From assembly GCA_947624795.1 (NCBI GenBank), contig CANQLY010000007.1, positions 1 to 34,227 of the forward strand: DNA of 34,227 nucleotides, in the 5' to 3' direction. The position numbers and the translations under genes are program-made. Positions 3,513 to 24,336 of this stretch are shown here, piece by piece. The number at the start of each line of letters is the position of its first letter. Positions within the stretch are counted from its first letter, which is position 1. The notes below the pieces were generated by a model, which was not told the origin of the DNA, made no database searches, and saw only the letters and a list, made by a program, of their open reading frames with translations. The stretch is from an uncultured Marinospirillum sp. GTDB lineage: Bacteria > Pseudomonadota > Gammaproteobacteria > Pseudomonadales > Halomonadaceae.

Positions 3513-5129
3513 TTAACTGGTCAATAAACGGAGTAGGTTTTTCCAGTCTTCACGAATATCGGGGTTCTCATCCTGTAAAGACTTAACTTTTCGGCAAGCA
3601 TGCAGTACCGTGGTGTGATCACGGCCACCAAAAGCATCACCTATTTCTGGCAAAGAGTGATTCGTTAACTCTTTAGTTAAAGCCATTGCTATTTGCCTTG
3701 GTCTAGCAATGGCTCGATTACGACGCTTTGAATGCAAGTCAGCAATTTTTATTTTGTAATATTCCACTACTGTGCGTTGAATATTCTCAACACCTACCTG
3801 CTTATCTTGTACTGCAAACAAATCTTTAAGTGACTCCCTAACTAGCCCAATACTAATCGCTTCACCTTTAAAGCGAGAATCAGCAATGACCCGATTAAGC
3901 GCCCCTTCTAAATCTCTAACATGAGAACGTATTTTTTGGGCAATAAAAAAAGCCACTTCTTGTGGTAAATTAACCCTAGCAATTTCAGCTTTTTTCATAA
4001 GAATAGCAACACGCAATTCAAGTTCAGGTGGCTCAATAGCAACCGTAAGCCCCCAACCAAAACGACTTTTAAGCCTTTCTTCAACACCAATTTCTTTTGG
4101 GTAACGATCAGATGTTAAAATGATCTGCTGCCCACCTTCTAATAAAGCATTAAACGTATGAAAAAACTCTTCTTGTGAACGGTCTTTACCAACAAAAAAC
4201 TGAATATCATCAATTAATAATGCATCAAGGTTACGATAATAACGCTTAAATTCATTAATTGCATTGAGCTGCAAAGCTTTAACCATGTCTTGCACAAAGC
4301 GTTCAGAATTAAGATAAACCACCTTAGCATTAGGATTAAGCTTAAGTATTTGATTCCCCACCGCATGCATTAAGTGAGTTTTACCCAAGCCTACTCCACC
4401 ATAAATAAACAAAGGGTTATAGGCACCCCCTGGATTTTCAGCCACTTGAAAAGAAGCCGCACGAGCCAATTGATTCGACTTACCTTCAACTAAGCTATCA
4501 AATGTATGGGAAAGGTTAAGATTAGAATGGTGCTTAATTCCCACGTCCATTTTAACCCCTTCACGCTTACGCACTTTAGATAAGCTGTTGGGTAAATTAA
4601 GTAGGCTTGGCACATTTGGCACACTCGTCTTTTCTATGCAAGGCAAGCTTGACAAAGGTGTGTCGGTTTGATTTTTTGAATCTGAATCTGCTTCGTTAAC
4701 TAAAGGGGTGTTGGTTAGTGCTAAAGCAGTGGCTGCTGACTGGTCATCTAATGTTTTTGATACTAATGGCTCATTTAAAGGCACTGATAAGGCATAGCTT
4801 GCAGATGAGCTTTGTACTGTTAAAGCAGGTATTGCTGCTGGCGTTATTGGCAAACTAGGCGAAGCACCCACCGCAGGCATTTTTTTATTACCCACCGCAA
4901 AACACACATCAAACACTTGCCCTGCTGAAACTTCTTGCACTAAGCCTTGTAGGCGTACCGAGTATTTATCAACAACCCACTGTAAAACAAAACGGTTAGG
5001 AGCAAATAACTGCAAGCTATCGCCATTCATTTCTGCTTGCAAAGGACGTATCCAAGTCGATATTTGTTGAGCTGGTATTTCATTTTCTAAGATCGCTAAA
5101 CATTTTGACCACAAATCATCAACTGACAC
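3513..5129 (-). CDS. dnaA: Chromosomal replication initiator DnaA
   Basis: 538 aa; GTG start; Walker [29 protein letters not shown], and DnaA-box-binding motif [19 protein letters not shown]. Confidence 0.98.
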
Positions 5130-5178: not shown

Positions 5179-5511
5179 TTATCCACAAGCAATGCCAATA
5201 CGCCAAATTATCAACACTTTTTAATCTTTTTCAACACAAAACCTGTGGATAACCCTGTGGAAAACCTATGTATAACCTAGGTATAACCCTGTGGATAACT
5301 CATGCTCTAGCCAAGCAATGCAAGTTATCCACAATCTATCCACAGCTTATCCACAAGATATCAACAACAAATGCACAGCCTTATCAACAGGCTAAGCTTA
5401 TGTTAAATAAAGTAAAAATTGAGTTATCCACAGAATTATCGATCCCTAATAATAACAATAATAAAAAAGCTTTTATAAACCATTATCTATAATTATCAGC
5501 TGTGTGGATAG
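5179..5511. other. oriC: Origin-like region (oriC copy 1, dnaA-rpmH intergenic): DnaA-box cluster plus AT-rich unwinding-type element
   Basis: Perfect TTATCCACA boxes at 5179-5187(+), 5244-5252(-), 5290-5298(-), 5325-5333(+), 5347-5355(+), 5424-5432(+); variants CTATCCACA 5336-5344 and 5503-5511(-), TTTTCCACA 5256-5264(-), TTATCAACA 5208-5216 and 5381-5389; followed by CTAATAATAACAATAATAAAA at 5446-5466. Confidence 0.92.
5324..5355 (+). repeat. Dispersed direct repeat, copy 1 of DnaA-box triplet (partner 9501-9532)
   Basis: gttatccacaatctatccacagcttatccaca vs gttatccacattctatccacagcttttccaca: 30/32 identical. Confidence 0.95.
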
Positions 5512-7924: not shown

Positions 7925-9286
7925 ATGAGCCATCAAGACACCATTGCCGCTGTTGCTACACCACCAGGCCGAGGAGGGGTAGGCATTGTTAGGGTTTCAG
8001 GGCCTTTATGTAAGCAGTTAGCCCAACAACTATTAAGCATGACTTTAACACCACGCTATGCACACTACTTACCTTTTTTAGACTTGCAAGGTGAAGTAAT
8101 TGATGAAGGGTTAGCCATCTTCTTTCCAGGCCCTAATTCTTTTACGGGTGAAGATGTTCTAGAGTTTCAAGGGCATGGTGGGCCTATGTTGCTTGATCGT
8201 TTATTAGAAAATTTATTAGCAGCAGGGGTGCGTCTAGCCCAACCCGGTGAATTTTCTCAGCGCGCGTTTTTAAACGATAAAATGGATTTAGCACAAGCTG
8301 AAGCCATTGCAGATTTAATTGATGCTACTTCACGCCAAGCGGCTGACAATGCGCTTAAATCTTTACAAGGCGTGTTCTCACAAAAAGTTCATGCCCTTGT
8401 GGATAAGTTAATTCATCTGCGCATGTACGTTGAAGCTGCCATTGATTTTCCTGAAGAAGAAATTGATTTTATAAGCGATGGTAAAGTTAAAAAAGATTTA
8501 CAAACCATTATTAAGCAACTTGCAGCAGTAAAAAATGAAGCACAGCAAGGCTGTTTGATGCGTGAAGGCATGAATGTAGTCTTAGCAGGCAGACCCAATG
8601 CGGGTAAATCTAGCCTTATGAACGCGCTAGCAGGCTATGACAAAGCTTTAGTTACAGAAATAGCAGGCACTACCCGTGACGTACTAAAAGAGCACCTTCA
8701 TATTGATGGCATGCCATTGCATCTTATTGATACAGCAGGCTTAAGAGAAACAGAAGACCTTGTTGAACGGCTAGGTGTTGAACGCGCTTGGCAAGAAATA
8801 GAAAAAGCGGATCGCATTTTATTATTGGTTGATGCACAGGAAACAACCAGTTTAGACCCTTTAGAAATTTGGCCAGAGTTTGTTAAGCGTTTACCTTATC
8901 CAGAGCGTTTAACCTTAGTAAGAAATAAAATAGATTTAACCGCAGAAGCAGCAGAATCAGACTTATCCACAACCCCACCAGTCATTCGCATTGCAGCCAA
9001 GCAGCAAGTGGGTGTGGATAACTTAAGGCAGCACCTAAAGCAGGTGATGGGACTAAAAAACACCCCAGAAGGTGGGTTTTCTGCACGGCGTAGGCATTTA
9101 GATGCCCTAGAAAGAGCAAGTAAAGTTATCCACAAGGGTAGTTTGCAATTAGAAATGCAGGGTGCAGGTGAGCTTTTAGCAGAAGATTTACGCAGTGCAC
9201 AAAAAAGCCTTGCTGAAATAACAGGTCAATTTACCGCAGATGACCTACTAGGTAAAATTTTTGGCGAATTTTGTATTGGAAAATAA
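7925..9286 (+). CDS. mnmE: tRNA uridine-5-carboxymethylaminomethyl modification GTPase MnmE
   Basis: 453 aa; [27 protein letters not shown]1 [13 protein letters not shown]-terminal [13 protein letters not shown]. Confidence 0.98.
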
Positions 9287-9337
9287 TTTTTTTAGTAAAA
9301 AATCCAGTAAAAAGTAATATTTTTATAACAAGCTTTA

Positions 9338-9378
9338 GCGAGCAGTGGTGAAAATTTCACCATTGCTCGCTTTTTTTT
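9338..9378 (+). terminator. Rho-independent terminator after mnmE
   Basis: GCGAGCAGTGGTGAAA-a-TTTCACCATTGCTCGC: 16-nt arms with one G-T pair, then T8. Confidence 0.92.
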
Positions 9379-9421: not shown

Positions 9422-9660
9422 TGTGGATAAGTCTGTGCGTTTCCTGTGGATAACCTATGTATAACCCAGTGGATATCTTTAACATTTAGCCAATAAAAAA
9501 GTTATCCACATTCTATCCACAGCTTTTCCACAGTTAATCCACAACTAATGCACAGGGTTATACACAGCCTCTAAGCCATGTAAATAAAGGGTTTGAAAGG
9601 GTTATCCACAGAAAACACTCTCACTAATAATAACAATAATAAAAGAACTTATATAAACCT
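9422..9660. other. Second origin-like region (oriC copy 2, mnmE-mnmG intergenic)
   Basis: Perfect DnaA boxes at 9422-9430(-), 9445-9453(-), 9502-9510(+), 9602-9610(+); variants CTATCCACA 9513-9521, TTTTCCACA 9524-9532, TTATACACA 9558-9566; identical CTAATAATAACAATAATAAAA at 9624-9644. Confidence 0.88.
9501..9532 (+). repeat. Dispersed direct repeat, copy 2 of DnaA-box triplet (partner 5324-5355)
   Basis: 30/32 identical to 5324-5355. Confidence 0.95.
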
Positions 9661-9785
9661 TATAGTTATTAACAGTAAGCAAAAAAAGCAACCAGCGCAG
9701 CAATCGCTAAGCAATAGATTTCTGCTGTGGTTGAATGATTTTCAGGCTATAATCGGCGGCTTTACTTAGAAATATTTCTTGAGGT

Positions 9786-11672
9786 GTGTCTGTGGATTAC
9801 CCAACCCGCTTTGATGTACTGGTTATTGGCGGTGGCCATGCTGGAACAGAAGCTGCATTAGCTGCTGCACGCATGGGTTGTAAAACGCTTTTACTAACCC
9901 ACAATGTGGAAACACTAGGGCAAATGTCCTGCAACCCAGCCATTGGCGGAATAGGCAAAAGTCACCTAGTGCGCGAAGTGGATGCGCTAGGTGGTGCTAT
10001 GGCACAGGCCACTGATTTATCAGGCATTCAATTTCGAGTATTAAACTCACGTAAAGGCCCTGCCGTTAGAGCAACTAGAGCCCAAGCAGACCGTGTGCTT
10101 TACAAAGCTGCTATTCGTAAAGTATTAGAAAATCAGCCTAATTTACAAATTTTTCAACAAGCAGCCGATGATTTAATTGTTCAAGGCGATAACGTTTGTG
10201 GTGCAGTTACCCAAACGGGTATAAAAATTTATGCCACTAGCGTTGTGCTTACCACCGGTACATTTTTAGGTGGGGTTATTCACCTAGGTTTACAAAACTA
10301 TTCAGGTGGACGTGCTGGAGATCCACCCTCAACGGCTTTGGCTGCAAGGCTTAGAGAATTACCGCTTCGGGTCGGTCGTTTAAAAACAGGTACCCCACCA
10401 AGAATTGATGCACGCAGTGTTGATTTTTCAGTCATGGAAGCACAAGCCAGTGATTTAATTTTGCCGGTAATGTCGTATTTAGGTAAAACTGAACACCACC
10501 CAGAACAAATTAGTTGCTACATCACTCACACCAATGAACGCACCCATGAAATTATTCGTAATAACCTTGATAGATCGCCCATGTATGCTGGTGTCATTGA
10601 AGGCATAGGGCCACGTTATTGCCCTTCCATTGAAGATAAAATTCATCGTTTTGCAGATAAATCCAGCCACCAAATTTTTATGGAACCGGAAGGATTAACA
10701 ACGCATGAGCTTTACCCGAATGGCATTTCAACTTCATTGCCTTTTGATGTGCAAATTGATCTAGTACGAACCATTCGTGGTATGGAAAATGCTCACATTA
10801 CAAGGCCTGGTTATGCGATTGAGTATGATTTTTTTAACCCACAAGATTTACAACCCACGTTAGAAACTAAAGTTATCCACAACCTGTTTTTTGCGGGGCA
10901 AATTAATGGCACTACCGGTTATGAAGAAGCCGCAGCACAAGGCCTTCTAGCCGGTGCAAATGCCGCTTGTAAAGTGCAAGGTAAAGAAGCTTGGTGCCCA
11001 AGGCGTGATGAAGCTTATTTGGGTGTATTAGTGGACGATTTAATTACACTAGGTACTTCTGAACCTTATCGCATGTTTACTTCCCGTGCTGAATACCGTT
11101 TATTATTACGTGAAGATAACGCAGATTTACGCTTAACAGAAAAAGGCCGTGAACTAGGCTTAGTTGATGATGTACGTTGGGCTGCTTTTGAAACCAAACG
11201 CGAAGCCATAGCGCTTGAAAAAGCCCGTTTAAAAGATACTTTTATTCACCCCAATACCCCCCAAGCCGATAGCTTAAGTAATAAACTAGAACAGCCTTTA
11301 AACCGCGAGCAGCCGTTGCTTGATTTACTTAAGCGTCCAGAATTAGATTATTGGGACCTAGCCCATTTAGCGCCGGGTGAATTGCCTGTTGATCCCCAAG
11401 TGCAAGAACAGGTGCAGATTCAAGTTAAGTATGCAGGCTACATTGACCGTCAAGCTGAGGACATTCAGCGCGTTAGACGCCAAGAAAATACTTTACTGCC
11501 CCAAGACCTTGACTACACTCAAGTTAGTGGTTTATCAAATGAAATGAAAAATAAACTAGCCAATGTTCGCCCTGCAACTCTTGCACAAGCAGGGCGCATT
11601 CCTGGTGTGACACCTGCGGCTGTATCGATGCTGCTTGTGCACCTTAAAAAACGTTCAATGTTGGTGGTTTAG
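9786..11672 (+). CDS. mnmG: tRNA uridine-5-carboxymethylaminomethyl modification enzyme MnmG (GidA)
   Basis: 628 aa; GTG start; [26 protein letters not shown]-binding, [39 protein letters not shown]. Confidence 0.98.
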
Positions 11673-20443: not shown

Positions 20444-20469
20444 GAAGGCGGCTTTGGTCGCCTTTTCTG
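20444..20469 (+). terminator. Putative terminator after atpC
   Basis: AGAAGGCG-gctttggt-CGCCTTtTCT hairpin, then gcTTTTT; preceded by the palindrome ATGCAGT-tt-ACTGCAT (20422-20437). Confidence 0.6.
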
Positions 20470-20522
20470 CTTTTTACTGTTTAGCTTTTATGTGTGATTT
20501 TACAGTATGGAGGGTGCAGTGT

Positions 20523-21884
20523 ATGACTGAGGAACACCAAGGTAAGCCGGTAGATTCAAACCTAACCTTAGAAGAATTAGTACCCGGTAAAGATAATTGG
20601 CATTATGCCCAAGCTAGTTTTCAATCAGTGGATGTGGCCGAGCAGCTAACCACCTTGCTTAGCGCTGAAGAGATAACGGCTTGTTTAGATTTATTACCCT
20701 TAGCCCGTCGTACTGACGTGTTTGATTACTTACCTGAAGGAATACAGGAAGAAGTTGCCACGGTTTGCAGCTTGGAATCATTGATGGAGCTTTTAGAAGA
20801 GCTTCCTTCAGACAGTGCAGCCGATCTTTTTAAATTACTAAGCACAGAACAGCAAGCCGATCTTTTAAGGGATTTACCTGCCCGCAATAGAGCAACTTTA
20901 GAACACCTTTCTCGTTACTCTGAAGGCACAGCGGGTGCTTTAATGACTTCAGAGATTTCATTGTTACCCACAGGCATCAACGTAGAGCGTGCGTTAGAAA
21001 TTTTACGTCGTACAGCCGCAGGTTCAGAAACCATTTATCACACCTACATTGTCGATCCACGTCACAGATTAGTCGGTGTGGTTTCTTTGCGTGAGCTTAT
21101 TCTTTCACCCCCTAAAGCTAGCTTAGATCAACTAATGACCGAAGAGCTGGTGACTATTTTACCCGATCAACACCAACAAGAAGCTGCCAGATTAATCAGT
21201 CGTTATGATTTACTTGCCCTACCTGTAGTCGATGAAAATCAACGCCTGTTAGGCATCATTACTTACGATGATGCAATGGATGTAACTGAGGAAGAAGATA
21301 CCGAAGACATGCATCGTGGCGCTAGTATTATGCCATTGGAAGAAGGCTTGTTACGCACCAGCTTATTTAACCTTTACCGCAGCCGTGTTGTTTGGTTAAT
21401 TTTACTTATTTTTGCCAACTTGGTTTCGGGGGTAGGCATTGCTTTTTTTGAGGACACCATTTCTGCCAAAGTGGCCCTCGTGTTTTTCTTACCCTTATTG
21501 ATTGGTAGTGGCGGTAATGCCGGTGCTCAAGCTTCAACACTTATGGTGCGTGGTTTGGCTGTGGGCGATGTAGGTTTAGGTGACTGGACTCGGCTTTTAG
21601 GTAGGGAATTATTGGTAGCCGGTGCACTAGGTTTAACCATGGCTGTTGCGGTATCGCCTATAGGCATGTTTCGTGGTGGGCTAGACATTGCATTTGTGGT
21701 AGGCATTAGCATGATCGTTATTGTGTTATTTGGCAGCTTGTTAGGCATGAGTTTGCCATTTTTACTGCACCGCTTAAAGTGGGACCCTGCCACGGCTTCT
21801 ACGCCTTTAGTAACCACCCTAGCCGATGCCGGTGGTGTAGTGATTTACTTTGCTTTAGCTACTTGGATGCTGGGTTTAAATTAA
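20523..21884 (+). CDS. mgtE: Magnesium transporter MgtE (paralog 1)
   Basis: N domain, two CBS domains and membrane domain with GGNAGAQASTLMVRGLA and WDPATASTPLVTTLADAGGVVIYF. Track ORF starts at 20454; ATG at 20523 follows a GGAGG-type RBS. Confidence 0.93.
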   Translation: MTEEHQGKPVDSNLTLEELVPGKDNWHYAQASFQSVDVAEQLTTLLSAEEITACLDLLPLARRTDVFDYLPEGIQEEVATVCSLESLMELLEELPSDSAADLFKLLSTEQQADLLRDLPARNRATLEHLSRYSEGTAGALMTSEISLLPTGINVERALEILRRTAAGSETIYHTYIVDPRHRLVGVVSLRELILSPPKASLDQLMTEELVTILPDQHQQEAARLISRYDLLALPVVDENQRLLGIITYDDAMDVTEEEDTEDMHRGASIMPLEEGLLRTSLFNLYRSRVVWLILLIFANLVSGVGIAFFEDTISAKVALVFFLPLLIGSGGNAGAQASTLMVRGLAVGDVGLGDWTRLLGRELLVAGALGLTMAVAVSPIGMFRGGLDIAFVVGISMIVIVLFGSLLGMSLPFLLHRLKWDPATASTPLVTTLADAGGVVIYFALATWMLGLN

Positions 21885-21886
21885 AA

Positions 21887-22945
21887 ATGTTAAATAGAAA
21901 ATTCAATTCATTATTAAAATTTAGTTTACTGCTGGCTTTATTGACTTTAGTTGCCTGCACTGAACAGCAAGATAAACAGCCGGTGCGCTTACAAGGGCAA
22001 ATTTTTGGTAGCTTTTGGCTTGCCACTTTGCCTGATGAATGGACCCCTACGCAGGTAAAGCAATTGCAAGCAGGTATTCAGGGGGAGTTAGATAAGGTTG
22101 ATGCGTCCATGTCAACTTATAAACCTGATTCAGAATTAAACCGTTTTAATCAAGCACCCTTAGGGCAATGGGTGGATTTGTCAGCAGAGCTTTTTGAAGT
22201 GTTTAATCTAAGCCAATCCATTGCAAGCCTTAGTCAAGGTGCGTTTGATATTACGGTGGGTGGCTTAGTTAACTTGTGGAATTTTGGCCCTGAAGTACGC
22301 CCAGAAGCAATACCAGAAACCAGTTTATTAAAAGAACGCCTAGCCGCTTCGGGTTACCAATACTTAGAACTAGATAATGAAAACCAAGCTGCACGCCGCC
22401 TTCGCGATAGTTCTATTGATTTATCGGGTGTGGCTAAGGGTTATGCTGTGGATAAAGTGGCTCAGTGGTTGCGGCAACAGGGTGTGGATAACTTTTTAGT
22501 GAATGTAAGTGGTGAAGTTATTGTTGCTGGGCAGCGTGCGCCGGAACAAGCTTGGCGTATAGGTGTTGAAGTACCTGATGGTAGCCAACAAAAAGCCCAC
22601 CATATTTTAGAATTAACCGATGAATCGGTTGCCACTTCAGGCGATTACCGTAATTTTTATGAATTTAATGGTAAGCGTTTGTCGCACACAATTAACCCTA
22701 AAACTGGTTCGCCTGTCGATCACAACCTAGCTTCAGTGACTGTTATTCATCCAAGTAATGCAGCAGCAGATGCTTGGGCAACTGCCTTTATGGTGTTAGG
22801 AACAGAGGCAAGTTTAAATTTAGCTAACCGTGAAAACCTTAAAGTGCTGTTAATTAGTAAAGAAGAAGGTGCATGGAAAACGCAAGTTTCCAATTATTTA
22901 CAGCAAAGTTTGGGTGCTGAATTAACGAATAAGCTACTTAACTAA
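21887..22945 (+). CDS. apbE: FAD:protein FMN transferase, ApbE family lipoprotein
   Basis: ATG at 21887 gives a signal peptide with lipobox LVAC; MSTYKPDSELNRFN, DLSGVAKGYAVDKVAQWL, SHTINPKTGSPV motifs. Confidence 0.93.
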   Translation: MLNRKFNSLLKFSLLLALLTLVACTEQQDKQPVRLQGQIFGSFWLATLPDEWTPTQVKQLQAGIQGELDKVDASMSTYKPDSELNRFNQAPLGQWVDLSAELFEVFNLSQSIASLSQGAFDITVGGLVNLWNFGPEVRPEAIPETSLLKERLAASGYQYLELDNENQAARRLRDSSIDLSGVAKGYAVDKVAQWLRQQGVDNFLVNVSGEVIVAGQRAPEQAWRIGVEVPDGSQQKAHHILELTDESVATSGDYRNFYEFNGKRLSHTINPKTGSPVDHNLASVTVIHPSNAAADAWATAFMVLGTEASLNLANRENLKVLLISKEEGAWKTQVSNYLQQSLGAELTNKLLN

Positions 22946-22977
22946 GTGCATTTAAGTGTTTGTTGCTGGAGAAAAAC

Positions 22978-24336
22978 ATGATTAATGATGAACAGTTAGC
23001 CAGTTTAAATAAGGCAGTAACAGAGGGCGATGCGCTTACTTTAGAGCGTTTAGTGCCAGACATTAAGCCTGTTGATTTGGCTGAACTTGTGCGTGATCAA
23101 ACCATAGACGTAGGCCTTAAGCTTTTAACTTACCTTTCTATTGAAGAGCGTGCCGATGTTTTTGGGCACCTTGACGTTATTACTCAATGTGATTTAGCCA
23201 AGAGAATGACGGAAGAAGGCTTGTCGCAGTTGTTTGTTTACATGAACTCTGATGAGCGTGCTGATTTATTTAACGAGCTGTCTGAACAGCAGCAGCAGAG
23301 TATTTTAAGGCGTTTAGCTAAAGAAGAGCGGGAAGATATTCGCCGCTTGGCAAGTTATGAAGAAGGGACGACCGGCTCAATTATGTCAAGTGACTATGTC
23401 ACGGTCGTGGCGCAAACTAGCGGCGTTAAAACCAGTGTTGCACAGGCGCTTGAAAGGGTTCGCCACACCGCCCCTAATGCAGAAACTATTTATCAGGTTT
23501 ATATTTTAAATGCTGATCAGCAGCTAGCAGGTGTGCTTTCTTTACGGCAATTAATTTTAGCAAAACCTGATGCGGTGGTTGATCAAATAATGACCACTGA
23601 ATTAGTTAGCATCAATGCCACTGAGCCTCAGGAAGAAGCTTCACGTTTAATCAGCCGTTATGATTTACTGGCCTTGCCTGTTGTAGATGATAATCAGCGT
23701 TTAATTGGCATCGTCACTTATGATGATGCCATGGACGTTGCCGAAGCTGAAGCCACTGAAGACATACACAAGGGTGCCTCTGTCGGGCCTTCAGACACGG
23801 GATTTGGGCAGGCAACCATAGGTAACCTTTACAGTCGCCGGGTTAACTGGCTGGTTTTATTAGTATTTGCCAATATTCTTTCAGGTGCTGGCATTGCCTT
23901 TTATGAAGAAATGATTGAAACCTATGTGGTTTTAGTGTTTTTCTTACCTTTATTGGTTGCCAGTGGTGGTAATGCTGGCTCTCAGGCTTCAACCCTGATG
24001 ATTCGTGGTTTGGCAACGGGTGATGTGGGTATAAAAGATTGGGGTAAATTATTAATACGTGAATTAATTGTGGCTTCTTTTTTAGGCTTAACCATGGCGC
24101 TGGCCATTGTTGGTATTGGTTTTTGGCGAGGGGGTGCTGAAATAGCGCAGGTGGTGGCTTATAGTATGTTTATTATTGTAATAATGGGCAGCTTAATTGG
24201 TTTAAGCTTACCTTTTTTACTAGTAAAACTAGGCTGGGATCCTGCCACTGCAAGTGGCCCTTTAGTTACTTCAATTGCTGATATCATAGGCGTACTGATT
24301 TACTTTGCTATTGCCACCTCTGTTCTTGCTTTTTAA
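22978..24336 (+). CDS. mgtE: Magnesium transporter MgtE (paralog 2)
   Basis: Same architecture as paralog 1: ISRYDLLALPVVDDNQRLIGIVTYDDAMDV, GGNAGSQASTLMIRGLATGDV, WDPATASGPLVTSIADIIGVLIYF. Track start 22960; 22978 also plausible. Confidence 0.93.
   Translation: MINDEQLASLNKAVTEGDALTLERLVPDIKPVDLAELVRDQTIDVGLKLLTYLSIEERADVFGHLDVITQCDLAKRMTEEGLSQLFVYMNSDERADLFNELSEQQQQSILRRLAKEEREDIRRLASYEEGTTGSIMSSDYVTVVAQTSGVKTSVAQALERVRHTAPNAETIYQVYILNADQQLAGVLSLRQLILAKPDAVVDQIMTTELVSINATEPQEEASRLISRYDLLALPVVDDNQRLIGIVTYDDAMDVAEAEATEDIHKGASVGPSDTGFGQATIGNLYSRRVNWLVLLVFANILSGAGIAFYEEMIETYVVLVFFLPLLVASGGNAGSQASTLMIRGLATGDVGIKDWGKLLIRELIVASFLGLTMALAIVGIGFWRGGAEIAQVVAYSMFIIVIMGSLIGLSLPFLLVKLGWDPATASGPLVTSIADIIGVLIYFAIATSVLAF

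Follow-up and report, generated by a model that had tools for sequence, protein, structure and literature searches.

Within the genome of an uncultured Marinospirillum sp., the sequence upstream of mnmG most probably contains an oriC linked to mnmG(gidA), with its R1-DUE unwinding module composed of a DnaA box, a spacer with fixed length of 13 nt and the first DUE repeats, upon which DnaA is predicted to act (we put the probability of this reading at roughly 0.8). All coordinates refer to the 34,227-nt stretch of contig CANQLY010000007.1 that was analysed as a whole (the window). According to the gene map of the window, one copy of the arrangement (o1) sits in the rpmH-dnaA gap and the second (o2), which is the predicted site of DnaA binding, unwinding and initiation, in the mnmE-mnmG gap. 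The o1 copy, of the same architecture, is a putative paralogous Pseudomonas-type origin/dnaA promoter. The features concerned are as follows.

5244 to 5298, reverse strand: DnaA boxes of o1 (5244; 5256 with 1 mismatch; 5290), from the box scan
5325 to 5389, forward strand: DnaA-box array of o1 (5325; 5336 with 1 mismatch; 5347; 5381 with 1 mismatch), from the box scan
5424 to 5432, forward strand: o1 DnaA box TTATCCACA, matching the o2 box, read from the sequence
5433 to 5445, forward strand: o1 spacer GAATTATCGATCC, 13 nt, read from the sequence
5446 to 5466, forward strand: o1 21-mer, identical to the o2 element, read from the sequence
7925 to 9286, forward strand: mnmE, left neighbour of o2 (gene map of the window; neighbours in relatives)
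9337 to 9378, forward strand: intrinsic terminator of mnmE (inverted repeat with a T run), bordering the origin region on its left, read from the sequence; a similar structure exists in the relative G003
9422 to 9453, reverse strand: DnaA boxes of o2 (9422-9430 and 9445-9453; -180 and -157 from R1), from the box scan
9502 to 9566, forward strand: DnaA-box array of o2, mostly in 11-nt steps (9502, 9513, 9524, 9535, 9558), from the box scan
9602 to 9610, forward strand: R1-like DnaA box TTATCCACA of o2, predicted high-affinity (0 mismatches; E. coli R1 in the same place)
9611 to 9623, forward strand: o2 spacer GAAAACACTCTCA, 13 nt, read from the sequence
9624 to 9644, forward strand: TAA-repeat element CTAATAATAACAATAATAAAA of o2, a 21-mer, putative edge of the DNA unwinding element, read from the sequence
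9748 to 9753, forward strand: TATAAT, likely -10 of the mnmG promoter, apart from the box array and present in most genus relatives (sequence and inference)
9786 to 11672, forward strand: mnmG (gidA), right neighbour of o2, transcribed away from the origin (TIGR00136, 931 bits)

The preliminary description had stated that the TAA-repeat 21-mer and its 13-nt distance from the box are identical at both loci, and that the two spacers are unlike in sequence and equal in length; reading of the sequence bears out both statements (GAAAACACTCTCA versus GAATTATCGATCC). On the strand complementary to 9624-9644, the element reads as the trios 3'-GAT TAT TAT-5' together with 5'-TTATT/TTGTT-3'. When positions 9625-9645, a probe of 21 nt displaced by one base, were searched for in the window with at most 3 mismatches, o1 and o2 were the only matches (0.00 expected from shuffles). 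The box TTATCCACA, with at most 1 mismatch, has 36 matches in the window, 8.3 being expected. A third match of the element in the same genome (contig C181) was set aside as chance, as it falls within a coding sequence (probably of a glycosyltransferase), where it specifies a run of Asn/Lys.

Next, we examined conservation of the module. The genus sample comprised eight genomes, from each of which both gaps (rpmH-dnaA and mnmE-mnmG) were extracted, and the family sample covered 24 genera. Seven of the eight genus genomes possess o2; in the remaining one, G004, mnmE and mnmG are separated by ~35 bp and no box cluster was found in that gap. The 3'-most o2 box is a perfect TTATCCACA at all seven genus loci, followed by GAAAnTGTCCACA or a variant of it (13 nt) and then by (C/T)TA(A/G)TAATAA. 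Of the o1 boxes, those of the window genome and G005 alone are perfect; the remaining six genus relatives have TTATCAACA, TTACTAACA, TTATGAACA, TTTTCCACA, TTATCCACT or ATATCCACA instead, and the o1 spacer again has 13 nt. Read by eye, the 13-nt spacing is present in 15/15 genus loci at both sites, with one base missing at the junction of G002 o2. Of 75 aligned mnmG-upstream loci, 73 show neither insertion nor deletion across box and spacer. Relatives devoid of such constraint, which the preliminary description had named as the outcome that would speak against it, are thus not what these alignments contain. In G006, G007 and G002 (loci L032, L031 and L033), a small reverse-strand ORF apparently lies between mnmE and the box cluster; the window is without it.

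Outside the genus, the box cluster accompanies mnmG even where mnmE is located elsewhere. A strict match to a 12-nt element failed to place the G+C-rich loci of the family, and a profile search was used instead. The 68-nt core profile matched 46 of 48 mnmG-upstream loci of genus and family, the two misses being G004, which has no o2, and G012, where the contig ends at the locus. In named Halomonas, Salinicola and Billgrantia loci, the family core was found with E values of 1e-9 to 1e-14. Pseudomonas, Shewanella, Vibrio and enterics have weaker forms, which as a rule precede mnmG by 180-240 nt, and the same position and geometry recur in named Enterobacteria, Vibrio, Shewanella, Pseudomonas and Halomonas.

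In 5,394 of 5,426 E. coli genomes, TTATCCACA-GGGCAGTGCGATC-CTAATAAG, again with a 13-nt spacer, is present between mioC and mnmG; this is R1 together with the right edge of the E. coli unwinding element. The distance from R1 to mnmG is 176 nt in E. coli versus 184 nt in the window. Position and core both match those of E. coli and so identify o2 as the mnmG(gidA)-linked oriC. With the oriC of E. coli, Vibrio and Shewanella it shares location upstream of mnmG, a DUE on the mnmG side, the TTATCCACA-13 nt-CTAATA edge and a similar distance to mnmG. It differs from them in having mnmE rather than mioC as its neighbour, in the layout of outer boxes and in the existence of a full second copy at dnaA. 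Whereas oriC of the E. coli type contains GATC-rich 13-mers and is controlled by SeqA, there is no GATC site from -260 to +120 at o2, and no SeqA was found in the eight genus genomes (the E. coli control was positive), so that o2 is not controlled in the E. coli manner.

The module was also compared with the basal unwinding system (BUS) of B. subtilis and many other bacteria, defined by a DnaA box, a spacer of up to 16 nt, most commonly 13, and at least three 3'-NAN-5' motifs; a tandem second box is optional, the tandem set being present in 57% of origins (PMC8287927). We required a box with at most 2 mismatches and at least three consecutive trios within 16 nt of it. At o2, a box without mismatch (9602-9610) is followed, after a spacer of 13 nt, by 3'-GAT TAT TAT-5', so that box, spacer and motifs are common to both. 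In contrast to BUS, the fourth motif of o2 is TGT and the downstream tandem box is lost in the window: most relatives carry a second tandem box, GAAAnTGTCCACA, inside the 13-nt spacer (nTGTCCACA being the better tandem box), and its degenerate counterpart in the o2 spacer, ACACTCTCA, differs from TTATCCACA at 5 positions. TTGTT repeats are kept even in the many family members that do not satisfy the strict trio rule; 8 of 39 loci in the rest of the family pass it, and TT[A/G]TT remains above the shuffled level there. Genus o2 loci contain on average 2.9 copies of TT[A/G]TT on the recognised strand, as opposed to 0.85 after shuffling, and 0 on the other strand. Fixed at 13 nt in enterics, Vibrio, Shewanella, Halomonas and Pseudomonas, the spacer links R1-DUE of E. 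coli to the general BUS rule.

We propose that DnaA bound to R1, with help from the array between -180 and -43, would be held in register to pass more DnaA to the T-rich strand. A DnaA filament would be seeded from R1 on the recognised strand, and the DNA would open in direction of mnmG, leading to helicase loading. The length of the spacer would fix the geometry between box-bound DnaA and its first contact with single strand, setting the register of the filament; the length is therefore expected to be selected and the sequence to be freer. Many promoters are known to be regulated by DnaA (PMC8203912) and the array does lie upstream of mnmG, so one might suppose that it serves merely in regulation of mnmG transcription or in DnaA titration, the TAA-repeat being incidental A+T-rich DNA. 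We consider this highly improbable: the likely -10 of mnmG is more than 100 nt away from the array, and titration needs no fixed 13-nt spacing, while the spacing is conserved as far as the oriC of E. coli.

The rpmH-dnaA origin of Pseudomonas and a second ARS of P. aeruginosa are credited to Yee and Smith 1990 and Jiang et al. 2006. Two ARS origins exist in P. aeruginosa, of which a single one is essential, according to the part of PMC4403523 that refers to Jiang et al. 2006. Together with G004, which lives without o2 and demonstrates that one lineage can do without the locus, this would agree with o2 being a decaying, unused, box-rich duplicate of the true oriC on the dnaA side. Such decay is nevertheless quite unlikely. 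Where o1 was also scored by the core profile, it is generally weaker than o2 throughout genus and family (except in G002, which belongs to the genus), the element has been lost from o1 in several genera which retain o2, and strand skew favours o2 as well.

The chromosomal origin is located on the dnaA side in Pseudomonas and on the mnmG side in Vibrio, Photobacterium and Shewanella, and these bacteria served as controls. TA skew did not separate the known dnaA-side from mnmG-side origins; hence the comparison relied on GC skew at 4-fold sites alone, taken as the value of the rnpA-yidC-mnmE interval minus that of mnmG. Over this span of 3.5 kb, which is noisy, and in genomes that are not independent, the difference was +0.05 in Pseudomonas (negative in 3/11), -0.13 in Vibrio/Photobacterium/Shewanella (negative in 8/8), -0.09 in the genus members with o2 (a small signal, negative in 7/7) and +0.19 in the o2-less G004. 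The sign distinguishes the genus from Pseudomonas with Fisher p of 0.004, the genomes being related. In 32 of 39 family genomes, the 7 kb to the left of o2 have negative skew; the exceptions belong to g4, g35 and, with one genome, g16, and the positive values of g4 and g35 fit a dnaA-side origin there. In much of the family, the dnaA and mnmG loci lie ~10-174 kb apart. Among four such genomes, skew of the dnaA-mnmG interval has the sign of an mnmG origin nearly throughout in G021 and G023, mostly in G055 and only in the mnmG half in G043. As the genus groups with mnmG-origin controls and G004 behaves in the opposite way, o2 is probably the main or a co-used origin of the lineage, a conclusion of moderate strength. 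It does not look like a relic. The earlier formulation that the second locus retains, or recently had, unwinding capability was right in direction and too modest in wording, given that o2 is the better conserved copy, occupies the E. coli position and is favoured by skew. G004, which belongs to the genus and lacks the intergenic region between mnmE and mnmG, can be viewed as a natural deletion of o2.

Duplication between o1 and o2 spans nearly the whole DnaA-box array of ~240 bp at a constant offset of 4177-4178, with blocks of 59, 72 and 59 nt at 80-83% identity. Relative to the 3'-most box, both copies have reverse boxes at -180, -157 and -134 and forward boxes at -99/-100, -88/-89, -77/-78, -66/-67 and -43/-44 (some of them with 2 mismatches); the o2 array is shifted by one base relative to o1, which leaves the 13-nt spacer length unaffected. 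At the o2 loci of genus and family, boxes recur at -144 (reverse, 23/46), -117 (reverse, 36/46), -99 (forward, 35/46) and +13 (forward, 32/46) from R1. Pseudomonas o2 has the -117 and -99 boxes in 11/12 loci, and most of the Pseudomonas o1 loci sampled likewise show the -117 step. Counts this high at one fixed position have a negligible probability of arising by chance, though the genomes are related. In o1 and o2 of the window, the -99/-100 box is kept, the array with 11-nt steps has been added, and the -117 box is absent with -134 in its place. These shared box steps make the two origins of Pseudomonas and of this family look like old paralogues. An mnmG-upstream array of another genus (G043; L112, C15 ~199,676-199,903) matches the window o1 at 69% over 228 bp, above most orthologues; shared ancestry, transfer or convergence are possible causes.

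The two window copies are 73% identical over 265 nt, whereas the o1/o2 pairs within relatives reach 55-62%. Identity of the 21-mers might accordingly stem from recent gene conversion between the copies instead of independent selection, an explanation that comes somewhat short of an even chance and is compatible with the unwinding module. The window o1 and o2 resemble each other more than either resembles its orthologue in G003 (68% for o2, 64% for o1), and the likeness is patchy: from -166 to -46, o2 is mostly closer to its own o1, as is the element, and from -46 to +14, R1 and spacer included, as well as in the flanks it matches o2 of G003. From -16 to +14, however, o2 agrees with G003 o2 in 27/30 positions and with its own o1 in 18/30; the o2 spacer is thus of o2 ancestry, and the box-spacer part was not copied from o1. 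Moreover, the spacing is kept in other genomes whose copies have diverged. Conversion could not be proved from a tree built on the 265-nt origin segments, as its resolution and support were poor. Partial gene conversion and parallel growth of the arrays are both possible sources of the likeness.

Complete, equally spaced arrays at both loci and the higher o1/o2 likeness in the window, which suggests homogenisation, would also suit a single bipartite origin, its halves separated by 4.2 kb, in which DnaA would form a bridge between the arrays and opening could take place at either element; bipartite origins are known in other systems (PMC4285127). We regard this as unlikely, since the distances between the dnaA and mnmG loci in much of the family imply that proximity is not required.

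Among known systems, Pseudomonas is alike in combining a dnaA-side origin with an mnmG-side locus that carries boxes at -117 and -99 and might correspond to the second P. aeruginosa ARS; in contrast to o2, its skew fits the dnaA side. DoriC lists two candidate oriCs in some Gammaproteobacteria, of which the gidA-side one was kept on the basis of GATC enrichment (PMC6323995). Such pairs resemble the present case in having two predicted origins per genome and differ from it in GATC enrichment, which is absent at o2. Neither paired candidate oriCs nor a 13-nt spacer is therefore new in kind; what is of interest is that two intact modules with equal spacing coexist. A further, rather tentative reading goes beyond the mnmG-linked unwinding module itself: the window may hold two paralogous origins, each complete for unwinding and 4.2 kb from the other, under selection and partly homogenised, initiation taking place at either or jointly, and the lineage could then represent a surviving intermediate stage between the dnaA-linked arrangement of Pseudomonas and the mnmG-linked one of enterics. 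With origins in the E. coli position and in the Pseudomonas position as paralogues of the same geometry in one lineage, a move of oriC between dnaA and gidA becomes testable.

DnaA boxes were also observed inside genes. An inverted pair within mnmE (8963-8971, forward, and 9013-9021, reverse), 50 bp apart, recurs in genus relatives, and in the family a pair with the same 50-bp spacing is found in a different gene, ~6-7 kb upstream of mnmG; coding constraint is possibly the cause of these pairs. The region 20454-24336 contains an apbE-like gene between two mgtE-like genes (named from translations alone), and two perfect DnaA boxes, 36 bp apart, lie in the apbE-like gene at 22447-22455 and 22483-22491 on the reverse strand.
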